Of a stretch of 64,000 nucleotides of DNA, positions 39,713 through 62,893 are shown one piece after another. A program made the translations under genes and the position numbers. Origin of the DNA: Arbacia lixula. Lineage: Eukaryota > Echinodermata > Echinoidea > Arbacioida > Arbaciidae. The stretch spans positions 17,924,922 through 17,988,921 of the forward strand of contig OZ022597.1 in NCBI GenBank assembly GCA_963669155.1, given 5' to 3'. Position 1 is the first letter of the stretch. Each line of letters opens with the position of its first letter. The notes under the pieces are model-generated. The model saw nothing but the letters and a program-made list of their open reading frames with translations. It had not been told where the DNA came from and did not search any database.

Positions 39713-41796
39713 CGCTTTATCTCTACCGCTCTATCTCACTCTTTCAATTTCTATCTCCCTCTCTCTCCATTCTTCTTCTCTTTTATTTCTCTCTTAAACT
39801 TTCTTGTATTCCCTCTCTATATCCCCACTTTTCTCTCATAATTGTATGTAGTAAATGTACTAGCGCCAAAATCTTCATACGAAAAGATCATCCACAAAGT
39901 GTAATATTTTGCATTCTGACACACATCTACGATAGAAATAAAAATACTAAATTGTTATCTTGTGATATATTACACGGAGCAATGTCGTATAATCGATACA
40001 AATCATGAAAAACATTTTGCTTTGAGGTTTATGTCCGAAGCTCAGCTGCAAATATAATTTGTCTACTATCAACCGGAAATTAGCACCAGTCCTGGCGCAA
40101 AGGTGTGTGTGTGTGTATGTGTGTGTGTGTGTATGTGTGTGTGTGTGTGTGTGTGTGTTGAGGGGGGGGGGGGTACTAGGTTTGTTTTCGCTAACCTCAC
40201 GAGAACACGCGCCTGTCTACATAGGCATTGAGCCAACGAAGGCGTTTCGCAACATCCTAAATAAATCCCGGGGTCTTATTATATTCCCTGGGAGCCTACA
40301 ATCCATACTAATAGGTGTATTACTCTACTTGCGTGAGCAAACTACAATTACAAGATAAAGTCTAAACACGCAGTAGTGGAAATGGCTGCCATGTTTATAG
40401 GTCCCGGTCTCATTAGACATGTTTGAGTTCAACTTTATTATCAACTGAATACGATCCCTCTACGTAATCATGAAATCAGCCGAGAAAAGGACCCGTTATG
40501 ATGGCAGGATGATTCTGCCATGTTCACGGTTGTTGTCGCTGTCGCCGGTTCGGCTTCAATATATGGTTCATATAATCATTATCACTACGATCACTCACCT
40601 GAGCTCGTTATGAGCCATTGCTACATTTGTTTCCAATAAACCCCATTAAGTAGCAGTTTTGTGTTAATTGCTTCTTACTCCTCATTCCTAGAATTCCTCT
40701 CAGTGTCCAGACGTAGTTATGGTTGTAGATATGCATCAGAAGAAACAGACAACACCCAACAGCCTGGAACCAAGGCTATCCCTGGGTCATCGTGCATGTC
40801 GTCTTGATTCGCTGAGACGCAACCACAGTTTGGAACATTTCAAATCCGTCGTTGCCTTGGTTGCGCCTCCGTGCATCAAGCCACGCGGTGAGATGCATTC
40901 TTTTGTTTTAGTATCATTGCGATGCTTATCTGTGCACTAATGCCAACAAAATCGTGCTGTATTTCTTTATGAATCTAAATTTTGTTTCAGCTACCCCATT
41001 TTGAACCACAGGAATTCATTATTCGGATGGCCATAGTGGACTGGTTTCGATTTGATAACAAGCCACGAGAACAAGAACACATTTTAAATAATCAAAACGA
41101 TTTTTCGTGTTTGTTGGCATGACAGCTGATAAATTTTTGGCACACCTGACAGTTTGTCTGCTCCTGTAACTTCTCTAGTCGGCAAAACTGAAAAGAAAGA
41201 AATATGCCGAGAAATTTCCTCTCTGCCGAAAACTCTCTTCAAAAGAATTACGTGTGATATGTGTGATTCTGCTTTGCCTTATTCAACTTGTTTCTTGCAG
41301 AGTCAATTCTCTCAGCTTTATGTAGCTCACAACCGTACTCATACACTTGCTTATTACGTTACAGTGCTGCCGTGCGTTTTCTATGACCGTGATATCAGCT
41401 AACATGAACATGATGACGAAATAATGTCAGATGTTATCATGTATGTCGCAATACCATACAAGGTTCTGGATGGTACGATCGAGGTGTCACCGGAAGTATC
41501 GCGCAACAAAGACAAAAAAATGTTATGAACTGTGGTTTCCTGCACAGGAAGAAAAGCAGCACAACAGTAGCTGAGTCATACACGCGAGCCAAAAAGAAAC
41601 CATTTACCATGTTTATAAAGAGCGTTATCATGTATGTTGTATCATTTCATACTTAATGCACATCAAATGGTCGACGCTATCGTTTCAGCTGTCTTCTAGT
41701 AGTTTGACTTCGGCATCAGAGTTCGGATACTTTCATCTAAGACTAGAACTTACATAAACTTTGTGATAACGTAAACCATATAGGAGACAGTAGATC

Positions 41797-43200: not shown

Positions 43201-44132
43201 TTTTTTGGGGGGGCGGGGTCTTTGTACATGTACCCTCCCGAGAACACGCGCCTGTCTATGTAGGCATTCAGCCAACAAAAGAGTCTATCAACATCCGATT
43301 TAAATCCCCGGGTCTCGTTAGAGTCCCTTGTAAATCAATACTAATAGGTCTTATTTTGATTTCTTATGAATTGTTTCAACAAAAGCAATGAGATAAAATC
43401 TGGAAACGCAGTAGTGGAAACGGTCTCATTTGACATGTTTGATTTCAACTTTATTATCATCTGTATACGATCCCTCTACGTAATCATGAAATCAACCGAG
43501 AAAGGGAGCCGTTATGATGACAGAATGATTCTGCCATGTTCACGGTTGCTGTTGCTGTCGCTGGTTTGGCTTCAATGAATGGACCCTTTTAATACAATAT
43601 TTTATACTATTATTACGGTTCCCGATCACTCACCTAAACTCTTTATGAGCAATTGATGCAATTCTCTCTATTTTCTGTAACCCACGAACTTACCCATACA
43701 CGGGTTTATCACGTCACAGTGCCCCCATGCGTTCTGTCTGAACTTGATATCAGAACAAATAACTTTCTATAGGCATTTAGCCAACAAAGGAGTTTATTAT
43801 CCAAACTAAATTGCTAACATAATGCCAGATGTTATAATGTATGTCGCAACATTATACAAGGTTCTGGGATGGTACGATTGAGATGTCACTGGAAATATCG
43901 CTCAATGAAGACAGGAAACATGGTATGAACTCTGGTCTCCTGCACAAGAAGAAAAACAACAGTAGCCGAGTCATACACGAGAGGCAAAACGAAGAGCGAA
44001 ATCATGTATGTTATATCATTCCATACTGAATGCACAGCAAATGGTCGACGCTATCGTTTCAATTGTTCTCTAGTAATTTGACTTCCCATGCGTTTATCTC
44101 AGACTACAACTTAGCCAAGAGAGAAAACGTAA

Positions 44133-44289: not shown

Positions 44290-45129
44290 GTAAAATTGGC
44301 GTACTTTAATTGATTCTAATTTCTGTGTGACGACGCTGCAATGGTAGTTTACAGAAGAGACAAACGAAAGGGGAAGGGCTAGCAAGAGAAGGAGAAAGAG
44401 AGAGCGTGAGAAAAGAGAATGAGATATGAAGGGGGTAATTAAGGAGAGAGGGAGAGATTAAGAGAGATATGGGGGAGGGTGGTGACGAGAGCGTAAAAGA
44501 TTGAAATAGAGAGAAACAGAGTTGAGCGAGAGAGAGAGAGAGAGAGAGAGAGTAAAATTTGGAGGATATGGGGTGAAAGGGAAAAAGACGGGTAGAAGAA
44601 TGAAGGACGGGGAAACAAGAAGGCGGAGAGAAAAGGGGCGTAGAGGAAAGGGGGAAAATCGTTGACAATACTAAACAGATTATTTACATCAAAACATCAG
44701 TCGTAAGAGTTATGCATCATTGAACTCTGGACTGATCAATATCTCATCTTACCGCGTTCTCCTTCTTTCATCTTACTCCCTCCCTTCCTCCTCCCTCGTC
44801 TCTTTCTCCTGCTCCTTTTCCTTGTCATGTCTTCCCTTTTCTACTCTTTCCTGTTCTCATTTTTCTCCTTCGACCGCTGATGTTAGTTGGATGATGATTT
44901 AACATCTTTAAAGTGTAAAAAAACACAAACACACACGCGCACACACACACAAACATACACACAAAAAAAAAAAAAAAAAAAAAAAAATAAGTCGATTGGT
45001 TATTTTCCACCCCCCCCCCCTTCCTGTCACTCAATGTGTAAAATTGACAGTGCCACTATACAACAACTAAATCATTACGTTGTTTGACTATTTTTCCTTT
45101 TTTCATGTCTATTTATTTCAGAATACACT

Positions 45130-46992
45130 ATGGCGAGCAAACACGTCATAGACTCATCATCTCTGGAGTGCTGTCTGTGCTTCCAGATTATGACAGAACC
45201 CAAGCAGCTGAAATGTACACACACCTTTTGCAAGGACTGTTTAGTCAAATACACTGAATCTACACGAGAGAGGAACCAAATACCATGCCCAATTTGTCGC
45301 GAAGTTACTCCTTTGAAGAAAGGCGACGTCTCGGAGCTTCAGACGAACATTCCCCTGAAATCCGTGATTGAAGACGTTACATCGGGTCTCACCATATGTA
45401 CCATGTGTGATGAGAAGAGCCAATCTCCAGCGGTGTGTTTCTGCGAGGAATGTGGTGACTTCATGTGCGAAGCGTGCCTCGATGTCCACAGGATGTTCAA
45501 AAAGACAGCACGTCACGCCACGTGTACCGTAGAGGACGCTATAAGTGGGAAGTTCAAGGTTAAACGAAAGTGCACGGAACACCCACACGAAGACAAGGAG
45601 TGGGTGTGTACTACATGCACACAGTCAGTGTGCTTCAGGTGTCGCGTCATTGATCACGGTGGGCCAGATCATGAGATTGAAGATGTTACAACGTACATCA
45701 AGGCACTGACAAATAACATTCAATCTCTTCAAATCGAGATAAACGCTGTCCTTGATTCATTCCAAGGTGAGACACAGGAAATAGTGGACGTTGAACTGAC
45801 AAAAGTTGACCCCTGCGTTGACAAAATAATCATGAAAATAAACAAGGCGTATGATGATCACATCCAACAGTACAACGAGAAGCGAGGTAAGCTCATCAAA
45901 GAATGTAACACAATCAGGGACCAAATAAAAGGAGAACTGCACAAAATAAGAGACGAGCGAGAATTGAAGTTAGGATGTATCACCAGTGCTAACGACTTGA
46001 TCGAGAATGGGTTAGATACTCTGATAGAGGGACACGCGCGATCTGTCCATGATAACGTCTGTGGTAGATTACATGAAGACTTGGCTAGTGTGAATGGTCA
46101 TGATGGGGAAGACTTGAAAAGGGCAAAGGAAGTTGTGAGTCGGGCGGAATGTCTGACTTTCACCCCGTACAGGATTAATGCCGAGCACAGTCTGGGTGAG
46201 GTGAGCTACAACCATTGGCGCCTGGAGAAGAGGAATGAGGTGGCCCTCACCGGCTTGTGCGCGTACAGCTTGGCAGCTACGCGTGATGGCAAGATGGTAG
46301 TGGGATATGTGTATGGTGGTGGGGTAGATGTGTGCAGTGTGAATGGGGTACATGAGAGAAGGATGCAGGGTGAGGTTGTCCAGTGTGTGTCTGTCTTGCG
46401 TGATGGACGATATGCAGTACGTGACCGGGATGGTCACATATCTCTCTACACACAGACGTGGGAGAAATGCAAGGCATTATCGTTTCAAAGGGTTGATACA
46501 CGCGGAGGTATGGATGTCGATGGATGCGATCATATATATGTAGGGTGTGTGGATGCTAAGGTAGTACGCGTCTTTACTCCTGTTGGTGGGCCACCAATGA
46601 GGGAGATCTCTTGTCCTGGGTATGACCCCTGGACAGTCTGCACCATGAATCACAGCGAGATGCTGGTACTGAGTGATGACTCATCAGTCAGAGTGGTGGA
46701 TGGAGAGGGCAATGTGATGTATGACGTCAGCAATAAGGGCTTCAATGCGCTCGTTACTGTGCTGCGAGATGACAACATCCTGATTGGATGGAGGAAGGCT
46801 GATCGGGTGAGTGTCGATCTGTACACGAATCAGCTGAGGCTCGTCAGGAGAGTCCTCGATGATTACCCTGTCAAAGGCTCCATGCGCGGTATCAGGGAAT
46901 TCTCGACGGGGGAGATCGCTTTATGCGATCAAAACAAACTACACATCTTCCGTAAGACACCAGGCTCACTCACTGGTAAGACGAGTCAATGA
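45130..46992 (+). CDS. TRIM-like E3 ubiquitin ligase, RING/B-box/coiled-coil/beta-propeller, copy A
   Basis: Predicted cytoplasmic RING-type E3 ligase of 620 residues, encoded in one exon. The C3HC4 RING is at residues 14-56 (C14, C17, C29, H31, C34, C37, C53, C56). B-box 1 is at about 90-129 (C90, C93, C105, C108, C113, C116, H120, H129). B-box 2 is at about 148-181 (C148, H151, C160, C163, C168, C171, H176, H181). A charged coiled coil runs over about 190-345. The C-terminal 371-611 shows about six repeats of an 'A-strand, RDG/DG turn, hydrophobic strand, VxVxS' pattern, suggesting an NHL-like propeller as in TRIM2/3/56/71-type proteins. All zinc ligands are intact. The start is supported by the acceptor TTTCAG at 45116-45121, eight bases before ATG, and by the identical context in copy B. 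Function as an innate immune E3 ligase is inferred from family behaviour; the ligand is unknown. The nearest vertebrate name cannot be fixed without a search. Confidence 0.93.
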   Translation: MASKHVIDSSSLECCLCFQIMTEPKQLKCTHTFCKDCLVKYTESTRERNQIPCPICREVTPLKKGDVSELQTNIPLKSVIEDVTSGLTICTMCDEKSQSPAVCFCEECGDFMCEACLDVHRMFKKTARHATCTVEDAISGKFKVKRKCTEHPHEDKEWVCTTCTQSVCFRCRVIDHGGPDHEIEDVTTYIKALTNNIQSLQIEINAVLDSFQGETQEIVDVELTKVDPCVDKIIMKINKAYDDHIQQYNEKRGKLIKECNTIRDQIKGELHKIRDERELKLGCITSANDLIENGLDTLIEGHARSVHDNVCGRLHEDLASVNGHDGEDLKRAKEVVSRAECLTFTPYRINAEHSLGEVSYNHWRLEKRNEVALTGLCAYSLAATRDGKMVVGYVYGGGVDVCSVNGVHERRMQGEVVQCVSVLRDGRYAVRDRDGHISLYTQTWEKCKALSFQRVDTRGGMDVDGCDHIYVGCVDAKVVRVFTPVGGPPMREISCPGYDPWTVCTMNHSEMLVLSDDSSVRVVDGEGNVMYDVSNKGFNALVTVLRDDNILIGWRKADRVSVDLYTNQLRLVRRVLDDYPVKGSMRGIREFSTGEIALCDQNKLHIFRKTPGSLTGKTSQ

Positions 46993-49265
46993 AAGCCTCT
47001 ATTCACGTTGACACGTCAATGAAAATAACCTGTTCAGTATAATACTCATCGACCAACTCACACATACTGTGACACATAAGATGAGATTTAGAATATATAC
47101 GTTCAGCGAAAATTGCATTGAATTCTAACACTGCATTCTTTAACAAAAAACGAGCATCATCAGATATTATTAAAAAATTATAGTTCGACGTGATAGTTAC
47201 TACTTGCAGTACATTTTTATTTTCTGTAATTATAACCAAATACACGCAGCTTCACTTTATTTTCCTGATCCTTTGTCAACATGACTCACGCCATTAAATG
47301 TTTTTTTTTTACCTTCATTTTTTAGATCAGTTGTTGTGATGGGAGTAGAATTAAATTTTGAAAAAAAAAATATTTTCAAAATCTCTCCAAACTAAAAGAG
47401 TTAAAACAGCAATAGTTTTCCACATCTCTGAGATTTCTCTCCAGCGGAAATCGTTGTTCAACAAGACACACAAATAGTTATGATATCCAGTGTTTACTAC
47501 GAACCTTAATGTAATGTTTACGCTCGCAGTTACCCCAAATCATGAAGTACTGGTACGATTCATGTACATGTACATCAGGACATGACTGTACATACAGACG
47601 ACGCGGGAGGGCGGTATTCTAGAAATATGAACTTACTTCAGGTCTGAGTTGTTGTGCCGACGTTATAATCGAACTTTGTTCCGAACACACGTTTCTTGCT
47701 GCAGCTCTCTGAACCCTTCTCACAATGTGGATTCTTTATTTGATATAAAATGTGCGACACAATCACACCAATATATCTGTAGAGAATCATTATTCTTATG
47801 TACAGGTCTCGAATAGATCTGAATTTCGAAAATGTTCTGATTACACATTCAAGAGATTTTCTCGTTGTAGGTTTAAGCTTTCGCTTCCTGGCTCTGTGAG
47901 CTTCTTCAGACTTCTGATAAGATGTGACCTACTTCTCGTCGAAGATGAAACTGTTGCAGTACATCTATGCACATATATGATGCGTGTTGCTTTGTTGGGC
48001 AAGCAGATAACAACCAATATGCCCATGTCATGACCTATTGAAAACGAGTTGGCCAAAATCTGTCTATATTGTAGACGGCTTTGGTGCCGTTTATAACAAA
48101 CGTCATTTTAAAGAAAGTTCAAGTGAATGACATTGCAAATTTGAAGGTATGCACTACTTGAAAACTTTTTACAAACTTAAAAAGAAATGCGATTGGTTTT
48201 TCATAATCGTTGAAGTTGACTTGTTTTGAAGTTGAATCGTTTAAATTTGAGGCACGAATAGATTCATAATATGTGTGTTACATGCATATCAAGTGTGTGG
48301 AGTTTGCATCTTATCTTCCATGTGAGGTAAAAGATGTGAATTATGATCACACAGTAGGCTACATATATATAGTGTGGTTAAGGTCTTTTTTATATGTATT
48401 CAGTTGGGTTTTTTTCTTCAAAGAATGGAATGTTTTGCCAGTGATAATACATGTACTAGAATTATCTTCATGCTGTGATTTTGTTTTGTATCAATTAGAT
48501 TTGTGTGACTCCTATCTCCCAGAGATTACACTTCATCATGAGATGAATCAATGCATGATCTCATAAACAAATCAGTTTTCATAGTCTATTCAGGCTCGTG
48601 TGTGCCTGTAGCCAGTAGTCATGACAGTTAATGCCGATATTTTTTTGGTCAGACAAATCCAATTGCAATAGGCACATCTGGCAGTATAACAATGCAGTTT
48701 CGTTATAGTTTTACACTGTCGCATTTTTAGTTGTTTCGTATTGTGAAAAAATAGATCTATATATTTCGGTTGATACCGGATTGAATTTCATGAAAATGTA
48801 TAATTTCCCCATTTTGTGATTGTTTCTGTAAATGCAGTAACCATTGCTCTGCAGGGCCTGTGTCATTGTCACATGGCAAGTTTACTTTGTCCTTGATAAA
48901 ATGTGACTACAAGAAATAATGCGTTACAATGGTAATAAATCGATTGTATATGAAATGACTGAATAATTTACTAAGTAGTTTTTTTTTTCTTTCCTAGAGA
49001 GTCTCTGTTGACTTGCTAATGGGATTCTACTGTATATCACTAATTAACACGTCTTATTATGAAGAAACAAAAGGAGAAAAGAGGGTGAACATTGAATAGG
49101 AAAATATGCAAAAGAAGCGGATACCATTTTTTTCTTAGTTATCTTGGCCTTTATATTGTTTGTAAATAGCGGAATCTATCATTATTCTGTCAACATAATC
49201 GTGTTAAACGAATAAGCATTAAAAGCGGTGGGGAAATAAGAAAGAATTAACTGCGTTATAAGAAT
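46993..49265. other. 3' flank of TRIM-like copy A, non-coding
   Basis: AT-rich sequence closely matching 58393-60700 with small indels. Short frames (such as 47752-48033 and 48273-48566) are not preserved as proteins in the sister unit. On the minus strand at about 47875-47915, a block reading CTGAAGAAGCTCACAGAGCC then GGAAGCGAAAGC resembles a motif common in Penelope-like and related retroelements. Confidence 0.6.
47293..47298 (+). terminator. candidate poly(A) signal of copy A
   Basis: ATTAAA, about 300 bases after the stop codon, followed by a T run. The equivalent in copy B is the canonical AATAAA at 58691. The flanks are homologous. Confidence 0.5.
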
Positions 49266-49670
49266 TTTTATCATCAAATTCATGTTTTAGTAAAGCATAT
49301 GATCAAGTTCAATCACAATAGAATGTTGTTATTACAGTACCGTATGAAAGCAGAGTGTGAATATAATTATTATTAAAGCAAAATGTAGTAATGTTCTTAT
49401 GTCATAACATATTGTTAGTATAAATAAGTTCTAATGCAATTAAGGAAAGCACAAGGTTGATACCATTTTATCTTATCAAGGCGTATTGTTGATACGATCG
49501 AGTAATATAAAGCATTATTGTGTGATATCAAAGCATATTGTTGAGGGTCCGGTGTTATATAATGGCGCCTTGTTGATACATGAACATTGTTATATCAAAG
49601 CAAAGTATTGCTATTATGGTATCATATCAAAGCATATTATTGGTTTTATGGTGTTATATCAGAGCATTAA
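49266..49670. repeat. degenerate AT-rich tandem repeat in unit A
   Basis: Variants of ATATCAAAGCATATTGTTG recur at roughly 35-45-base spacing, separated by short linkers such as GTCCGGTGTTATAT. The sister tract in unit B is at about 60720-61113. Confidence 0.65.
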
Positions 49671-51780
49671 TACAACTTCCAGCAGCGACCCTTACTGCCA
49701 GTCAGTAAATGAGTCTAGTTTAGTAGACCAGCATACGGATATATTGTACGGTGATGCTCCACGCCCCAAAAGGGCAAACTACCATGTAGTCTGATCTTAC
49801 CAAACACAATTATGTTTCAGGTGTCTAAAGTATCCATGTGTCTGGAGACTGTGTACATGCTCTCTATATTTTCCCAAACTGGAAGGATGTTTTTTTGTTA
49901 TTACCTTGGTGCCCAGCGAGGCTTGTATACACTATTGTGAGTCTTCTCTGGATATCTATATTGAGTGGCCACAGTCCCCACATCACTTTGTATGCTACTG
50001 CGATACTTCTGAATGAACAATCACGAAGTCTCTCCAAGTCTCTAAGGATTATATTCGTCTCACTTCCTCTGAAGAACGCTTATTGCAATGATTATGAAAA
50101 GTACAGTCACAACAAGGACAGTGAGAAGTTATTGTATATATTCACATGCAATGTAAAGTAAGAAGTAAACTACTTTGTGCATATCTTTGTAAACTAAGAG
50201 AAGTGAATAGTGCACGTAATGATATGTAAATGAAGTAAGTACAGTGTACATCGTGTTTATTTACCTAACCTGTTTCTATGGTGAGAGTATCCTAATGCAT
50301 TCAAGGATGAAGTACTAGTATACTTCTCAGTACTTGTTTTCGTAATGTTAGGTTAATGATGAGACCTGTATGCAATATATACTGTCATTAATTTGATTAA
50401 CATTACTTCTTTTTTTTTTATCTTTCCCGTTCTTCATGTACTTATGTGGATATTTGCAAAAAACATTTCAGTTGATTTTGAGCTGTATATGGTCTATCAC
50501 TGAATGATCTCTTTAAATTGAAATATATATAGAGGTTCTAACAAAATGTATACGTATACTCTTGTAACAATATCGTGCTGTCAGTCCGTGAGTTGTGTAT
50601 ATTTAATTTACTACTCAGACACTACATGGACGGCGCATAGAGTATGTAAAGGGTCAACATTATTCAGGTAACACCAGCGTGCAGTGTGTGTAAACTACGT
50701 TTGTAATATTTTGATGCGATTGTTTTTGTTTACGATACAACCATTGGAAATAAGTCTGAAGCAGAATTATTGGGGATGGAGCCACAGAGTCTAAGACAAA
50801 AGGAATGTATTGAATGTGTAATGGTTGTTCATGTGGTGATTGGGGTAGCGATTTGGAAGCAGATAAAGTAAGATACATGAATGGAACTTAATCCCTATGA
50901 TATGATACTATATCATGTATATTTCTATGTAGAACCTATACATATTACTATTACCAAGTACATCCATCATGTAGGATTAATACGTTGTAGTGGCAAAGCT
51001 TGTTTGTGTATTAGAAATGGTTATTTTCACTCGCTCATTTATTAAACACTGCTAAGAACGCTTTTTAAATGTAGATAAAAATCAGCTCTGGATTTCTTTA
51101 TCATTTACAAGTGTAAATTGGAAGATTCCAATACGTGTTTTTGTTGTAAGGCAGGAAGACCGGAAGTGAGACAAAGAGGAAATGTATTGGTAGAGAGATA
51201 GAGATGGAGAGCAAGAGACAGAAAACAGATACAAGAGAAGGAAACAGGGGACTTACAGAGAGAGAGAGAGGGGGAGGGGGGTAACAAGAAATAAGGAAAA
51301 TAAAGAAGAGAAAAGAGAGATGGGAACATGTGTGTGTGTTTATTTGTGTGTGTTTGTGTGTGTGTGTGTGTGTGAGAGAGAGGGGGGGGGTGTAGAGATA
51401 GAGCTAGAAGAGGGGAAAAGTGAGAATGAGAGAGCGAGAGAAGAAAAGGGAGAAAGGGGGAGATACAATGAAAGAAGGGATCAGAGAATAATAAGACATG
51501 GCGTAAGAATGTGTGAAGAAAAAAATATACATTAAACATGTTATACACACGTGGAAGAGATACAAACAAATAGACATACATAATTATGCTCTTGCTGCCC
51601 CACCCCCCCCCCCCCTCCATCCCTCGCATAAACACCTCTCCTTTCGCACCTTCCCTCCCTTATACTCCATTACTGACAAAATCAATGCATGTTTGCATTA
51701 CAAGACAGAAACTGAATTATTGTTGTTTTACCTTTTCGCATACTAACCTAACGCTTGCATAATGCCCGAAAATTCTTTCA
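49671..51780. other. gene-free remainder of unit A
   Basis: Matches 61114-63640 of unit B. It includes GA and TG microsatellites at about 51255-51400 and one copy of a GGTAACAAGAAATAAGGAAA block at 51281 that is present three times in unit B. Confidence 0.6.
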
Positions 51781-54044: not shown

Positions 54045-55607
54045 GTTGTGTAACTACAATTACGAGATAAAGTTTAAACACGCAGTAGTGGAAATGGCTG
54101 CCATGTTTATAGGTCCCGGTCTCATTTGACATGTTTGATTTCAACTTAATTATCATCTGTATACGATCCCTCTACGTAATCATGAAATCAGCCGAGAAAA
54201 GGACCCGTTATGATGGCAGGATGATTCTGCCATGTTCACGGTTGTTGTCGCTCTCACTGGTTCGGCTTCAATATATGGTTCATATAATCATTATCACTAC
54301 GATCACTCACCTGAGCTCGTTATGAGCCATTGCTACATTTGTTTCCAATAAATCCCATTAAGTAGCAGTTTGGTGTTAATACTCTTCATTCCTAGAATTC
54401 CTCTCAGTGTCCAGACGTAGTTATGGTTGTAGATGTGCATCAGAAGAAACAGACAACACCCAACAGCCTGGAACCAAGGCTATCCCTGGGTCATCGTGCA
54501 CGTCGTCTTGATTCGCTGAGACGCAACCACAGTTTGGAACATTTCAAATCCGTCGTTGCCTTGGTTGCGCATCCGCGAATCAAGCCACGCAGTGTGATGC
54601 ATTATTTTGTTTTAGGATCATTGCGATGCTTATCGGTGAAAACAAAAACGTGTAAAATTTCCTTAATAATCTAATTTGTTTTTAAGTACGCCATTGTGAA
54701 CCACAATAATTCAGTTTTCGGACTGCCATAGTTGACTTGATTTGACTTGATAACAAACTACTAGAACAAGAACACATTTCAAATAATCAAAACGATTTTC
54801 CATGTTTGTTGGCATTACAGCTGATATATCTATGGCACGACTGACATTTTTCTGCTCATGTAAGTTCTCTAGTCAGCAAAATTGAAAAGAAATAATCATG
54901 CCGATAAGATTTCCTCCCTGCCGAAAACTCTCTTCAAAAGGATTACGTGTGATTTTTGTGATATTGTTTTGCCTTATTCCACTCGTTTCTTGCAGTCAAT
55001 TCTCTCGGTTTTATATAGCACACGGTCATACTCATACACTGGCATATCTAATCACAACACAATGCTGGCGTGCGTTCTCTGTTATTGTGATATTAGCTAA
55101 CATGAACATGATGACGAAATTCTGTTCAGATGTTATAATGTATGTCGCAATATCATAGAAAGGTCTTTGATGGTATGATCGAGGTGTCACCGGAAGCCAG
55201 TATCGCGCAACAAAGGCAGGAAACATGAAATGAACTCTGGTCTCCTGCACAGGAAGGGAAAACAACACAACAGTAGCTGAGTCATACACGCGAGCCAAAA
55301 CGAAACCATTTACCAGGTTTATTAAGAGCGTTACCAGGTGTTACCAGGTGTTTACGTGATTTGTATCACAGGGCTCCTTTGGAAAGCAGTCCTCGAGACT
55401 GAAAGGACTACCCTGTCTAAATAAAACGTGAAATAAAATAAAGTATGTTGTATCATTCCATACTGAAAGCATAGCAAATGGTCAACGCGATCGTTTCAGC
55501 TGTCTTCTAGTAGTTTGACTTTGGCATCAAAGTTTGGGTACGTTTATCTAAGAATAGAACTAATAGAAACCTTGTGACAACGTTAGCCAAATGAGAAACA
55601 TCAGATA
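54045..55607. other. upstream region of TRIM-like copy B, no established gene
   Basis: Matches 40335-41796. A plus-strand frame starting ATGGTTGTAGA (54423; 40719 in unit A) is open in both units, but the differences in its first 57 codons are replacements and it has no recognised domain, so it is not called a gene. Confidence 0.5.
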
Positions 55608-56220: not shown

Positions 56221-56523
56221 GGAGGAGTGGTGATGAGACAGGAATGATTAAAATAGGAAAAAGAACAGTGAAGAGAGTGAGTTCAGGAGTGCGAGGGAGA
56301 ATGAGACAGTTTATAGAGAAAGGGATAGAGAAAGATGAGGGCGGAGAGAGAAGAAGGTGCAGATATTCATTTTTTCCTTCGACTGCTGATATTCAGTAAG
56401 ATGATGATTGAATGTCTTAAAGTGTTAATAACATACACACACACTCACACAAACACGCAAAAATTTATTGACTGGTTGTTTTCCACCACTTTCTGTCATA
56501 TATTTTTTATTTCAGAATACACT

Positions 56524-58392
56524 ATGGCGAGCAAACACGTGATAGACTCATCATCTCTGGAATGCTGTCTGTGCTTCCAGATTATGACAGAACCCAAACT
56601 ACTCAAATGTACCCACACCTTTTGCAAGGACTGTTTAGTAAAATACACTGAATCTACACGAGAAAGGAACCAAATACCATGCCCACTTTGTCGCGAAATT
56701 ACTCCTTTGAAGAAAGGCGACGTCTCGGAGCTTCAGACGAACATTCCACTGAAATCCGTGATTGAAGACGTTACATCGGGCGTCACCATATGTACCATGT
56801 GTGATGAGAAGAGCCAATCTCCAGCGGTGCGTTTCTGCGAGGAATGTGGTGACTTCATGTGCGAAGCCTGCATATATGGTCATGGGGTGTTCACGAAGAC
56901 AGCACGTCACATTACAGTTACCGTAGAGGACGCTCTCAGAGGGAAGTTCAAGGTTAAACGAAAGTGCACCGAACACCCACTAGAAGACAAGGAGTGGGTG
57001 TGTACTACATGCAAACAGTCGGTGTGCTTCAGGTGTCGTGTGCTTGATCACGGTGGGCCAGATCATAATATTGAAGATGTTACAACGTACATCAAAGCGC
57101 TGACAGAAAACATTCAATCTCTTCGAATCGAGATAAACGCTGCCCTTGATTCATTCCAAGGTGAGACGCAGGAAATAGTGGACGTTGAACTGCTAAAAGT
57201 TGACCCCTGCGTTGACAAAATAATCACGAAAATAAACAAGGCGTATGATGATCAAATCCAACAGTACAACGAGAAGCGAGCTAAGCTCATCAAAGAATGT
57301 AACACAATCAAGGACCAAATAAAAGGAGAACTGCACAAAATAAGAGACGAGCGAGAATTGAAGTTAGGATGTATCACCAGTGCTAACGACTTGATCGAGA
57401 ATGGGTTAGATACTCTGATAGAGGGACACGCGCGATCTGTCCATGATAACGTCTGTGGTAGATTACATGAAGACTTGGCTAGTGTGAATGGTCATGATGG
57501 GGAAGACTTGAAAAGGGCAAAGGAAGTTGTGAGTCGGGCGGAATGTCTGACTTTCACCCCGTACAGGATTAATGCCGAGCACAGTCTGGGTGAGGTGAGC
57601 TACAACCATTGGCGCCTGGAGAAGAGGAATGAGCTGGCCCTCACCGGCGCGTACGCGTGGAGCTTGACAGCTACGCGTGATGGCAAGATGGTAGTGGGAC
57701 ATGGGTTGGGTGATGGGGTAGATGTGTGCAGTGTGAATGAGGTACATGGGAGAAGGATGCAGGATGAGGATGTCAGGCGTGTGTCTGTCTTGCGTGATGG
57801 ACGATATGCAGTACGTTACTGGGATGGTCAAATATCTCTCTACACACAGACGTGGGAGAAATGCAATGCAGTATCGTTTCAAAGGGTTGATACATTCGGA
57901 GGTATGGATGTCGATGGATGCGATCATATATATGTAGGGTGTGTGGATGCTAAGGTAGTACGCGTCTTTACTCCTGTGGGTGGGCCACCAGTGAGGGAGA
58001 TCTCTTGTCCTGGGTATGACCCCTGGACAGTCTGTACCATGAATCACATCGAGATGCTGGTACTGAGTGATCGCTCATCAGTCAGAGTGGTGGATGGAGA
58101 GGGCAATGTGATGTATGACGTCAGCAATGAGGGCTTCCGTGCGCGCGTTGCTGTGCTGCGGGATGACAACATCCTGATTGGATGGGAGAAGGCTGATCGG
58201 GTGAGTGTCGATCTGTACACGAATCAGCTGAGTCTCGTCAGGAGAGTCCTCGATGATTACCCTGTCAATAACTACATGTACGTGCGCTCTATCAGGGAAT
58301 TCTCGACTAGTGAGATCGCTTTATGCGATCACCACAAACTACACATCTTCCGTAAGACACCAGGCTCACTCACTGGTGTGACGAGTCAATGA
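56524..58392 (+). CDS. TRIM-like E3 ubiquitin ligase, copy B
   Basis: Paralogue of the gene at 45130: 622 residues, same architecture, all RING and B-box zinc ligands kept. The frame is open further upstream (to 56335), but that part is intron: the acceptor TTTCAG ends at 56515 and the extra residues are repeat-derived, so the start is set at 56524. By hand alignment there are 65 replacements and a two-residue insertion (in the loop near residue 585) relative to copy A. They are concentrated at 117-139 (B-box 1 end) and in the propeller (371-617), and absent from 264-370. Same predicted role: RING E3 ligase with a variable propeller that may contact a ligand or RNA. There is no sign of inactivation. 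The poly(A) signal AATAAA is at 58691. Confidence 0.93.
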   Translation: MASKHVIDSSSLECCLCFQIMTEPKLLKCTHTFCKDCLVKYTESTRERNQIPCPLCREITPLKKGDVSELQTNIPLKSVIEDVTSGVTICTMCDEKSQSPAVRFCEECGDFMCEACIYGHGVFTKTARHITVTVEDALRGKFKVKRKCTEHPLEDKEWVCTTCKQSVCFRCRVLDHGGPDHNIEDVTTYIKALTENIQSLRIEINAALDSFQGETQEIVDVELLKVDPCVDKIITKINKAYDDQIQQYNEKRAKLIKECNTIKDQIKGELHKIRDERELKLGCITSANDLIENGLDTLIEGHARSVHDNVCGRLHEDLASVNGHDGEDLKRAKEVVSRAECLTFTPYRINAEHSLGEVSYNHWRLEKRNELALTGAYAWSLTATRDGKMVVGHGLGDGVDVCSVNEVHGRRMQDEDVRRVSVLRDGRYAVRYWDGQISLYTQTWEKCNAVSFQRVDTFGGMDVDGCDHIYVGCVDAKVVRVFTPVGGPPVREISCPGYDPWTVCTMNHIEMLVLSDRSSVRVVDGEGNVMYDVSNEGFRARVAVLRDDNILIGWEKADRVSVDLYTNQLSLVRRVLDDYPVNNYMYVRSIREFSTSEIALCDHHKLHIFRKTPGSLTGVTSQ

Positions 58393-58690
58393 AAGCCTCT
58401 ATTCACGTTGACACGTCAATGAAATAACCTGTTCAGCATAATACTCATCGACCAACTCACACATACTGCGACACATAAGATGAGATTTAGAATATATACG
58501 TTCAGCGAAACTTGCCTTGAATTGTAACACTGCATTCTTTAACAAAAACGAGCATTATTAGATATTATCCAAAAATTATAGTCTGACGTGATAGTTACTA
58601 CTTGCAGTATATTTTTATTTTCTGTAAATATAACCAAATGCACGCAGCTTCACTTTATTTTCATGATCATTTGTCAACATGACTCACGCC

Positions 58691-58696
58691 AATAAA
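58691..58696 (+). terminator. candidate poly(A) signal of copy B
   Basis: AATAAA, about 300 bases after the stop, followed by a T run. Its homologue in unit A is ATTAAA at 47293. Confidence 0.55.
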
Positions 58697-60719
58697 TTTT
58701 TTTTTTACCTTCTTTTTTTAGATCAGTGGTTGTGATGGGAATTGGATTAAATGCTAAAAAACATGATTTTATTCTCAAAATCTCTCCAAACTAAAAAAGG
58801 GTTTAAAACAGCAATAGTTTTCCACATCTCTGCGATTTCTCTCCAGCAGAAATCGTTGTTGAACAAGACACACAAATAGATATGATATCCAGTGTTTTCT
58901 ACGAACGTTATGCAATGTTTACACTCGCAGTTACCCCAAATCATCAAGTGCTGGTACGATTCACGTATCAGAACATGACTGTACATACAGACGATGCGGG
59001 AGGGCGGTATTCTAGAAATATGAACCTACTTAGGCCTGAGTTGTTGTGCCGACGTTACAATCGAACTTTGTTCCGAACACACGTTTCTTGCTGCAGCTCT
59101 CTGAACCCTTCTCACAATGTGGATTCTTTATTTGATGTAAGATGTGCGACACAATCACACCAATATGTCTGTAGATAATCAGTATTCTTATATGCAAAAA
59201 GATAATGATTTGTTTTTGTAAAGGTTTCGAATAGATCTGAATTTTGAAAATGTTCTGTTTACACGGTCAAGAGATTTTCTCATTGTAGGTTTAAGATTTC
59301 GCTTACTGGCTCTGTGAGCTTCTTTGGATTTCTGATAAGATGCGACGTACTTTTTGTCGAAGATGAAACTGTTGTTTTAGTACATCTATGCACATACATG
59401 ATGCGTGTTGCTTTGTTGGGCAGGCAGATAACAAACAACATGCCCATGTCATGACCTATTGAAAAAAGTTGGCCAAAATTATGTCTATATTGTAGACGGC
59501 TTTGATGCCGTTTATGACAAACGTAATTTTAAAGAAAGTTCAACTGTATGACATTGCAAATTGAAGGTATGCACTACTTGATAACTTTCAATATTTTTAC
59601 AAACTTAAAAAGAAATGCTATTAGTTTGTCATAATCGTTGAAGTTGACTTGTTTTGTATTAAGTTGAATTGTTTAATTTAAGGCACGAATAGATTCATAA
59701 TATGTGTGTTACAAGCATATAAAGTGTGTAGAGTTCGCATCTCATCTTCCATGTGAGGTAAAAGATGTGAATTATGATCACACAGTAGGCTACATATAGT
59801 GTGGTTAAGGTCTTTTTTTTTCTTATATATGTATACAGTTGGGTTTTTTTCTTCAAAGAAAATGATGAATGGAATGTTTTGCCAATGATAATACATGTAC
59901 CAGAATCATCTTCATGCTGTGATTTTGTTTTGTATCAATCAGATTTGTGTGACTCATATCTCCTAGAGATTACAGTTCATCATGAGATGAATCAATGCAT
60001 GATCTCATAAACAAATCAGTTTTCATAGTCTATTCAGGCTCGTGAGTGCCTGTAGCCAGTAGTCATGATAGTTAATGCCGATATTTGTTTGGTCAGACAA
60101 ATACAATTGCAATAGACGCATCTGGCGGTATAACAATGCAGTTTCGTTATAGTTTCACACTGTCGCATTTTTAGTTGTTTCGTATTGTGAAAAAAAAACT
60201 AGATCTATTTCGGTTGATACCGGATTGAATTTCATGAAAAAGTATAATTTCCCCATTTTGTGATTGTTTCTGTAAATGCAGTAACCATTGCTCTGCAGGG
60301 CCTGTGTCATTATCACATGGCAAGTTTACTTTGTCCTTGATAAAATGTGACTACAAGAAATAATGGGTTACGATGGTAAAAAATCGATTGTATATGAAAT
60401 GACTGAATAATTTACCAAGTAGTTTTTTTTTTATTTCCTAGAGAGTCTCTGTTGACTTGCTAATGAGATTCTACTGTATATCACTAGCATGTTTCAAATA
60501 AACAAAAAGAGAAAAGAGGGTGAACATTGAATAGGAAAATATGCAAAAGAGGCAGATACCATTTTTTAAAAGTTATCTTGATCTTTATATTGTTTGTAAA
60601 TAGCGGAATCTATCATTATTCTGTCAACATAATCGTGTTAAACGAATAAGCATCAAAAGCGGTGGGGGTGATAAGAAAGAATTGACTGCGTCATAAGAAT
60701 ATTTATCATAAAATTTTAG
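58697..60719. other. 3' flank of TRIM-like copy B, non-coding
   Basis: Homologous to 47299-49265. No conserved reading frame. The retroelement-like block on the minus strand (GAAGAAGCTCACAGAGCC-type) recurs at about 59290-59335. Confidence 0.6.
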
Positions 60720-61113
60720 TAAAGCATATGATTAAGTTCAATCACAATAAAATGTTATTATTACAGTGCCATATCAAGGCAGAGTGTGGATATAATTATT
60801 ATTAAAGCAAAATGTAGTAATGTTCTTATGTCATAACGTATTGTTAGTATAAATAAGTTCTATCAAAGTATGTCTATGAAATTAAGGAAAGCACATGGTT
60901 GATACCATTTCATCTTATGTGTATTGTTGATACGATCAAGTAATATAAAGCGTTATTGTCATGATTGTGTGATATCAAAGCATATTGTTGAGGGTCCGGT
61001 GTTATATATAGGCGCCTTGTTGATACATGAACATTGTTATATCAAAGCAAAGTATTGCTATTATGGTATCATATCAAAGCATATTATTGGTTTTATGGTG
61101 TTATATCAGAGCA
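60720..61113. repeat. degenerate AT-rich tandem repeat in unit B
   Basis: Same ATATCAAAGCATATTGTTG-type repeats as 49266-49670, with small insertions relative to unit A. Confidence 0.65.
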
Positions 61114-62699
61114 TTAATACAACTTCCAGCAGCGACCCTTACTGCCATTCGGTAAATGAGTCTAGTTTAGTAGACTAGCATACGGATATATTGTACGGTG
61201 GTGTTCCACACCCCAAAAGGGCAAACTACCATGTAGTCTGATCTTACCAAACACAATCATGTTTCAGGTGCCTAAAGTATCCATGTGTCTGGAGACTGTG
61301 TACATGCTCTCTATACTTTCCCAAACTGGAAGGATGTTTTTTTGTTATTACCTTGGTGCCCTGCGATGGCTTCTATACACTATTGTGAGTGTTCTCTGCA
61401 TATCTATATTGAGTAGCCACAATCCCCACCTGACTTTGTATGCTACTGCGATACTTATGAATATACAACCACGAATTTTCTCCAAGTATCTGAGGATTAT
61501 ATTCGTCTCACTTCCTCTCAAGAACACTTATTGCAATGATCATGAAATGTATAGTCGATACAAAGACGGTGAGAAGTTATTGTAGACATTCACAATGTTA
61601 AACAAGAAGAAAGCTCCTCGGTGCATATCTTTGTAAACTAAGAAAAGTGAATAGTGCACGTAATGATATGTAAATAAAGTAATTACAGTGTACATAGTGT
61701 TTATTTACCTTACCTGTTTCTATGGTGAGAGTTTCCAAATGCTTTCAAGGATGAAGTACTAGTATACTGCTCAGTACTTGTTCTCGTAATGTAAGGTTAA
61801 TGATGAGACCTGTATACAATATATACTGTCATTAATTTGATTAACATTACTTTTCTTTTCTTTTTTTTTTATCTTTCCCGTTCTTCGTGTACTTATGTGG
61901 GTATCTGCAAATAACATTTCAGTTGAATTTGAGTTGGACATGGTCTATCACTGAATTATCTTTTTAAATTGAAAGATATATAGAGGTTCTAACACGTGTA
62001 TACGTATACTCTTGTAATGATATCATTCTGTCAGTCCATGAGTTGTGTATATTTAATGTACTACTCAGACACTACATGGACGGCGCATGGAGTATGTAAA
62101 GGGTCAACATTATTCAGGCAACATCAGCGTACAGTGTATGTAAACCACGTTTGAAATATTTTGATGCGATTGTTTTGTTTATGATACAACCATTGGAAAT
62201 AAGTCGAAAGCAAAATTATTGGGGATGGAGCCACAGAGGCTAAGACAAAAAGAATGTATTGAATGTATAATGGTTGTTCCTGTAGTGATTGGGGTAGCGA
62301 TTTGGAAGCAGATAAAGTAAGGTACATAAATGGAACTTAATCCCTATGATAAATTATGACAGTATATCATGTGTATTGCGATGTAGAACCTGTACATATT
62401 ACTATAATCAAGTACATCCATCACGTGGGATTAATACGTTGTAGTGGTAAATCTTGTTTGTGTATTACAAACGCCTATTTTCACTCGCTCATTTATTAAA
62501 CACTGCTAAGAACGCTTTGTAAGTGGAGATGAAAATGAGTTCTGGATTCCTGTATCGTTTTCTTTTACAGGTGTAGACACAGGAAGATTTTAATACGTGT
62601 TTTTGTTATAAGACATATACGACCAGGAGTAAGACAGAGAGGAAAGGTGTTGGTGGAGAGATGAAGAGCAAGAGACAGATAACAGATACAAGAGAAGGA
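61114..62699. other. gene-free part of unit B
   Basis: Homologous to 49671-51240. Short open frames are not conserved between units as proteins. Confidence 0.55.
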
Positions 62700-62704
62700 G
62701 AGAG

Positions 62705-62710
62705 GAGACT

Positions 62711-62773
<63 letters not shown>

Positions 62774-62837
62774 GGGGGGGGGGGGGGTAACAAGAAATAG
62801 GAAAATAAAGAAGAGAAAATAGAGGGGGAAACAGTGA

Positions 62838-62893
<56 letters not shown>

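Follow-up and report, generated by a model that had tools for sequence, protein, structure and literature searches.

One face of a TRIM-type propeller as the site of diversifying selection in a large, tandemly duplicated echinoid gene family

Introduction

Two neighbouring TRIM-type genes, A and B, lie in a 64-kb window of Arbacia lixula DNA (G000:C22:17924922-17988921; the window is the whole stretch analysed), and they raise the question why the C-terminal propellers of two complete genes should differ by many amino-acid replacements and by hardly any silent changes. The original prediction, made from the letters of the window, read this as diversifying selection on the recognition surface of an E3 ligase. 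Here we analyse the pair together with its relatives, for which the whole 607 Mb assembly was searched, and ask where the variation lies, what maintains it and what the variable surface might recognise.

Results and Discussion

A and B are both intact and encode a RING, two B-boxes, a predicted coiled coil and a terminal six-bladed NHL-type beta-propeller (Table 1). The program-made open reading frame of B is longer and begins at 56335; we place its start ATG at 56524 because of the homology to A and the conserved acceptor-like CAG. This CAG was found 8 bases ahead of the ATG in all 12 loci inspected, a sequence pattern suggestive of a 5' UTR intron. The long helix over codons 186-297 is a low-confidence prediction in two models, and no Pfam coiled-coil model scored above cut-off in A or B. 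No B30.2 domain was found in either protein, the propeller standing in its place. TRIM45 carries a filamin domain between the coiled coil and the C-terminus, and no filamin match is present among the Pfam matches of A and B; the sources use "TRIM45-like" as a name only.

Table 1. Features of genes A and B and of the tandem duplication, in positions of the window.
Feature	Position	Strand	Description
Gene A	45130..46992	+	620 codons/aa, single coding exon; TRIM-type, C-terminal NHL-type propeller
Gene B	56524..58392	+	tandem paralogue of A, 622 codons/aa
Acceptor-like site	45114..45129	+	CAG ending at 45121, then 8 bases to the ATG of A; conserved
RING of A	45160..45309	+	codons 11-60; both A and B exceed the cut-offs of PF13445 and PF00097
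Two B-boxes of A	45397..45681	+	codons 90-131 and 145-184; two stretches match PF00643 above cut-off
Predicted long helix, coiled coil of A	45685..46020	+	codons 186-297; pLDDT mostly 51-70
Tract without any A-B difference	45919..46239	+	A codons 264-370, equal to B 57313-57633; conversion-like
Propeller of A	46216..46962	+	codons 363-611, six-bladed NHL-type; strand 363-372 closes blade 6
Propeller of B	57610..58362	+	codons 363-613; D5-A6 loop carries the two-codon insertion
Longest aligned block of the tandem duplication	45112..51382	+	partner 56506-62886, 90.0% identical
Span of the 25 clade I selected positions	46255..46932	+	codon site models

A Pfam scan of the seven other open reading frames of the 64-kb window gave nothing above cut-off. 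A 194-codon open frame runs antisense to B (57463-58047, minus strand), and A lacks a counterpart of at least 150 codons; it is probably a chance frame. Upstream of both genes lies a 300-base repeat (40340-40639, 43356-43655 and 54052-54351), its second and third copies being 97% and 63% identical to the first.

Replacement excess between A and B

Realignment of propeller codons 371-620 gave exactly the difference originally described, that is 38 replacements, 4 silent codons (485 GTT/GTG, 504 TGC/TGT, 546 CGA/CGG and 593 ACG/ACT) and one two-codon insertion, and the inverse pattern claimed for codons 1-100 was also reproduced, with 4 replacements and 9 silent changes (Fisher p 6e-5 for 38:4 versus 4:9). 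Elsewhere, replacements and silent changes number 16 and 9 in codons 101-200, 7 and 1 in codons 201-300, and 0 and 0 in codons 301-370. The silent deficit of the propeller is visible also when single base changes are counted, as 5 of 53 are silent against a site-based share of 172/747 (binomial p 0.009). By the Nei-Gojobori method pS is 0.194 and pN 0.052 over codons 1-184; the corresponding values are 0.029 and 0.084 over propeller codons 365-613, and 0.008 and 0.112 over codons 365-455. This propeller pN of 0.084 exceeds the A-B divergence in 14 of the 16 250-base windows that cover 46901-50900 (range 0.028-0.114).

A large echinoid family

With A as query, the assembly contains at least 81 matches, of which 27, counted by hand, have no break, cover nearly the full length and reach 54% identity or more; 7 further near-full-length matches stand at 31-33% identity. 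A Diadema relative used as query gave 82 matches, of which 52 run without a break for 590 or more of the 618 residues (again a hand count). The family is clustered on C22, C21, C11, C1 and C8. In the protein database 159 relatives were matched, and 119 of the 120 listed have echinoid names, one being nameless; the named relatives among the matches listed belong to Strongylocentrotus, Lytechinus and Diadema and carry mixed labels (TRIM45-like, TRIM2-like, RING finger protein 207-like). Weaker, partial matches were given by one Branchiostoma protein and one nameless protein. The Cys/His zinc-ligand columns of RING and B-boxes are invariant in 103 sequences. A and B are members of a large echinoid family of tandemly duplicated genes, TRIM-type and ending in a six-bladed NHL-type propeller.

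Selection in the propeller

Codon analysis covered A, B and 26 of the 34 loci L009-L042. Left out as broken or partial were L020 and L022-L028 (L020 and L023-L026 have no near-full open frame), and L016, which runs off frame after about codon 536, was masked from that codon. Site models were fitted with our own script, which allows single-base steps and applies a common silent rate to every site. In clade I, consisting of 11 close paralogues, M0 omega was 0.32 over codons 1-184, in line with purifying selection on the RING, 0.69 over codons 185-364 and 2.62 over codons 365-613. M2a assigned 12% of the propeller sites to an omega of about 15 (LRT M1a/M2a 295), a value that may be inflated because many codon differences at selected sites are multi-base (462/949) and because pS is raised inside selected codons (0.165, compared with 0.046 beside them and 0.040 far away). 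The raised pS may come from path counting or from multi-base mutation. No selection test was significant in clade I codons 1-184 (p 0.15-0.3), and the coiled coil gave a weak signal (M7/M8 p 0.001, M8a/M8 p 0.025, M1a/M2a p 0.08).

The older clade II (14 genes) had omega values of 0.38, 0.51 and 1.23 in the same three parts, a propeller LRT of 183 and nothing significant outside the propeller, and 16 positions are selected in both clades (p 2e-10). Two further clusters, on C11 (7 genes) and C1 (5 genes), gave propeller LRTs of 66.6 and 19.8, with whole-domain omega of 0.81 and 0.96 and fewer selected sites in each; the RING of the C1 genes gave an LRT of 11.8 that is due to a single site, in a set of five genes that includes one nearly identical pair. 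A family-wide dN/dS of 1 or less, which would count against the original prediction, was thus not what we found in the two clades, and does describe the whole domain in the C11 and C1 clusters, where few sites are selected.

Similar statistics could in principle arise with no positive selection at all, from a mutation hotspot, from multi-base mutation, or from gene conversion analysed on a wrong tree. Recombination is real by the PHI test (p < 0.001 for the RING, the coiled coil and codons 1-535 together), and the many multi-base differences and the raised pS inside selected codons count in favour of such mimicry. Against this, the A-B ratio of 38:4 needs no tree, the silent rate beside selected codons is about that found far away, and null simulations (n=24) with a new tree every 15 codons and no positive selection reached an LRT of at most 14.8 with M0 omega of 0.40-0.63. 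Moreover, all six propeller sub-windows remained significant when each was given its own tree (p <= 3e-5), and a hotspot would be blind to the face on which the selected sites cluster. We therefore regard mimicry as very improbable. Relaxed constraint after duplication, or decay of the genes, is more improbable still, to the point of being negligible: the broken copies L016, L020 and L023-L026 do fit it, but relaxation would bring omega near 1 and not above, the framework codons are conserved with variation on one face, and the 27 unbroken copies speak against decay.

Position of the selected sites

The propeller was modelled with confidence as a six-bladed NHL-type fold, and in a fold search of the predicted structure NHL folds were the best structural matches, two of them solved with RNA; in the Pfam scan no family, NHL repeats included, matched the C-terminal 256 (A) and 258 (B) residues. 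For the face test residues were grouped by whichever loop centre was closer, which put 128 of the 244 residues in the half of the D-A and B-C loops, the side that we take to be the top surface of the propeller. Strand d2 was set by hand in the main test, and the test was repeated without that stretch. Sites were called at unequal cut-offs, M8 P > 0.9 in clade I and M2a P > 0.95 in clade II, and three of the 33 clade II positions lie beyond codon 609 and were unscored.

The clade I selected codons are 376, 377, 379, 382, 394, 395, 396, 407, 418, 433, 434, 457, 458, 474, 499, 501, 502, 517, 539, 555, 583, 584, 586, 587 and 601. All except 382 and 407 belong to the D-A/B-C half (23/25, p 1e-5), as do 29 of the 30 scored sites of clade II (p 2e-8), and in either clade 2 of 243 circular shifts equal the observed count. 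For the A-B replacements the figure is 27 of 37 (hypergeometric p 0.005), equalled by 14 of 243 shifts. The selected sites reach all 12 loops of this face in clade I and likewise in clade II, the A-B replacements 10 of 12. Without the hand-set stretch the counts become 21/23 for clade I, 28/29 for clade II and 26/34 for A-B. In the smaller clusters 5 of 6 scored sites (C11, p 0.14, not significant alone) and 5 of 5 (C1, p 0.04) fall in the same half. The earlier claim that the replacements lie mostly on one face is hence only moderately borne out by A and B, and strongly once the paralogues are added; instead of an even scatter over the structure, the selected sites are restricted to one face of a confident model. 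Taken together, our results show strong diversifying selection at about 25 positions that flank the D-A and B-C loops in each of the six blades, alongside conservation of RING, B-boxes and framework.

This was further examined at the protein level with 100 of the 120 listed relatives in four groups (the Diadema group pools two species), a comparison that locates variation and gives no omega. Pairs of close paralogues in the four groups differ at 0.28-0.32 of top-half versus 0.10-0.19 of bottom-half positions, and the top half holds 24 of the 25 most variable columns in Lytechinus pictus, 23 in L. variegatus, 22 in Strongylocentrotus and 22 in Diadema, counts equalled by 2, 3, 0 and 8 of 243 circular shifts, respectively. 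Sites chosen in clade I differ at 0.51-0.56 in the other echinoids and the remaining sites at 0.15-0.22. Assembly error, named in the original prediction as a possible source of the differences, can be set aside because the same positions vary in many independent loci and in other species. The reading of the locus as diversifying selection on a recognition surface has accordingly gained support from two clades, the face test and other echinoids, and we consider diversifying selection on one propeller face to be nearly certain. Relaxed constraint, assembly error and a mutation hotspot were set aside on the strength of omega, simulations, face clustering and recurrence in other species.

Exchange of the propeller framework

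The pS between clades I and IIa drops from 0.89 in codons 1-40 to 0.04-0.08 in codons 441-600. IIa and IIb form one clade in the N-terminal tree (support 100); in the propeller tree, built from codons 441-600 without the selected ones, IIa falls among the genes of clade I, in a group of I, IIa, L018 and L019 with support 100. By these comparisons the framework was transferred between deep, ancient lineages, with gene conversion as the apparent means. Inside the propeller PHI was not significant (p 0.21 with and without the selected codons), so that exchange of this part rests on the clade comparison and the trees. Framework exchange lowers silent divergence and thereby makes the 38:4 ratio starker, and exchange alone does not push replacements above silent changes. 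The low silent count was originally taken as a mark of selection; the selection holds, and conversion of a young framework between genes and clades contributes to the low count too. As the framework was exchanged between old clades, the genes share a frame, each with its own face.

In the flanks of the close paralogues on C22, the downstream side aligns with A at 88-93% in 8 of 9 copies (L013 gave no alignment) and the upstream side at 66-85%, mostly in short stretches. Exchange thus far traced in the propeller seems to continue beyond it into the 3' flank.

Possible function and targets

The set of residues at the 25 sites is different in all 28 genes. Relative to the rest of the propeller (25 genes), Trp is enriched 5.5-fold and Tyr 3.0-fold at the selected sites, and Val, Pro and Met are rare. 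The net charge of the 25 sites ranges from -4 to +4 (28 genes), as counted on the sequence and not on the surface. One possibility is an RNA-reading face of the kind found in Brat, LIN41 and Mei-P26, with the family having diversified into regulators or sensors of fast-changing RNAs. Solved NHL propellers are known binders of host RNA, so that non-immune roles are possible; NHL domains are also the structures most similar to the A/B propeller, and the RNA of NHL-RNA complexes is bound at their top surface (PMC9070667, PMC5908797). However, the four NHL domains compared in PMC9070667 have a highly positive top patch, against which the charges counted here argue weakly, and the enrichment of Trp and Tyr also speaks against RNA. 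The face chemistry weakly favours protein, peptide or glycan targets over an RNA backbone, and we consider the RNA reading doubtful.

We propose instead that proteins of the A/B type would be cytosolic E3 ligases, as the conserved RING and B-box Cys/His residues suggest, and working E3 activity is highly probable on this ground. The propeller face would capture variable cytosolic targets, most likely pathogen or parasite proteins or other ligands; the coiled coil would oligomerise the ligase on the target, and the RING would then ubiquitinate it or start signalling. This mode of action would be like that of finTRIM or TRIM5alpha, with the propeller replacing B30.2. Each germline copy would represent one specificity, and the clusters an inherited repertoire of intracellular recognition E3s. 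A role in defence is likely, and TRIM-type E3s with a diversified propeller face forming an intracellular recognition repertoire are likewise, in our judgement, the probable best explanation overall. With slightly less confidence we favour an echinoid germline repertoire built on a propeller scaffold with about 25 variable face positions, whose cassettes would be converted between old RING/coiled-coil backbones and so spread specificities.

Selection on a recognition face says nothing of the target, and the face could be diversifying against something other than pathogens, such as products of transposons or endogenous viruses, selfish genes, germline conflict or allorecognition. The similarly selected fungal HET propellers act in non-self recognition between individuals (PMC4986451). 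The vertebrate arms-race TRIMs finTRIM and TRIM5alpha, on the other hand, are antiviral (PMC2657112), which by analogy would argue against non-pathogen targets; we consider these unlikely, if less so than RNA.

Relation to known systems

The nearest parallels in mode of evolution are the finTRIMs of teleosts and TRIM5alpha of primates, described in PMC2657112 as multigene or arms-race TRIMs with positively selected C-terminal loops. As in finTRIM, positive selection in the A/B family is concentrated in loops of the C-terminal domain, but this domain is B30.2 in finTRIM and TRIM5alpha and an NHL-type propeller here; for finTRIM the same paper reports selection also at sites just upstream of the RING (PMC2657112). 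With the TRIM-NHL proteins (TRIM2/3, TRIM71/LIN41, Brat, Mei-P26, Thin) the family has the NHL fold in common, and it is unlike them in the hypervariable face and in a C-terminal region without Pfam NHL match. The fungal HET-E/D/R (NWD) NLRs resemble it by a concerted propeller framework with few diversifying surface positions (PMC4986451); there, however, the propellers are WD40 on NLRs and near-identical repeats are shuffled, whereas in the A/B family they are NHL-type on a TRIM and the exchange is between genes. Large echinoid germline families are also known in SpTransformer/185-333, TLR, NLR and SRCR, SpTransformer being mosaic and recombining (PMC13428168); their proteins are unrelated to the A/B family. 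The words "TRIM" and "tripartite" are absent from the main text of that review of echinoid immune families (PMC13428168), and our searches of open-access literature, with most subscription journals outside their scope, gave no description of such a hypervariable-propeller family. In another study tripartite motif proteins account for 140 annotated S. purpuratus genes, and genes labelled TRIM45, a label that does not by itself place them in the A/B family, go up after UVB, 10 in phagocytes and 9 in vibratile cells (PMC13043383).

Propellers of TRIM NHL proteins are known as RNA binders; in this large family of invertebrate genes the fold appears as a hypervariable surface for recognition, in parallel to the vertebrate B30.2 arms-race TRIMs and the fungal HET propellers. 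The genes offer a ready-made collection of propeller faces on a common frame, and the roughly 25 defined positions are a starting point for asking what is recognised in the cytosol of echinoid cells. If the proposal is true, this would be an E3-coupled system of variable receptors on a propeller, encoded in the germline and working within the cell, and functionally comparable to antibody- or VLR-like repertoires.

Further copies in the genome

Several members of the family depart from the common form. L021:3860-5782 (minus strand), on G000:C22 near 15.53 Mb, is an open paralogue of 641 aa with a 21-residue insertion, which contains an Asp-Asn repeat, just before the propeller. At G000:C11:10.19-10.37 Mb 11 more distant relatives are clustered, 6 of them near full length; the other 5 match in two stretches, query residues 5-84 and 124/125-614, as if split by a short gap or an intron. 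Many partial or interrupted copies, several covering only about codons 214-620, are present at C21:7.4-9.0 Mb and C22:15.53-15.80 Mb and could possibly be conversion donors or two-exon genes. The neighbours L053 and L054 (G000:C1:708230-710200 and 697150-699130) look identical over the part of the propeller compared, a likeness that points to a very recent duplicate or conversion.
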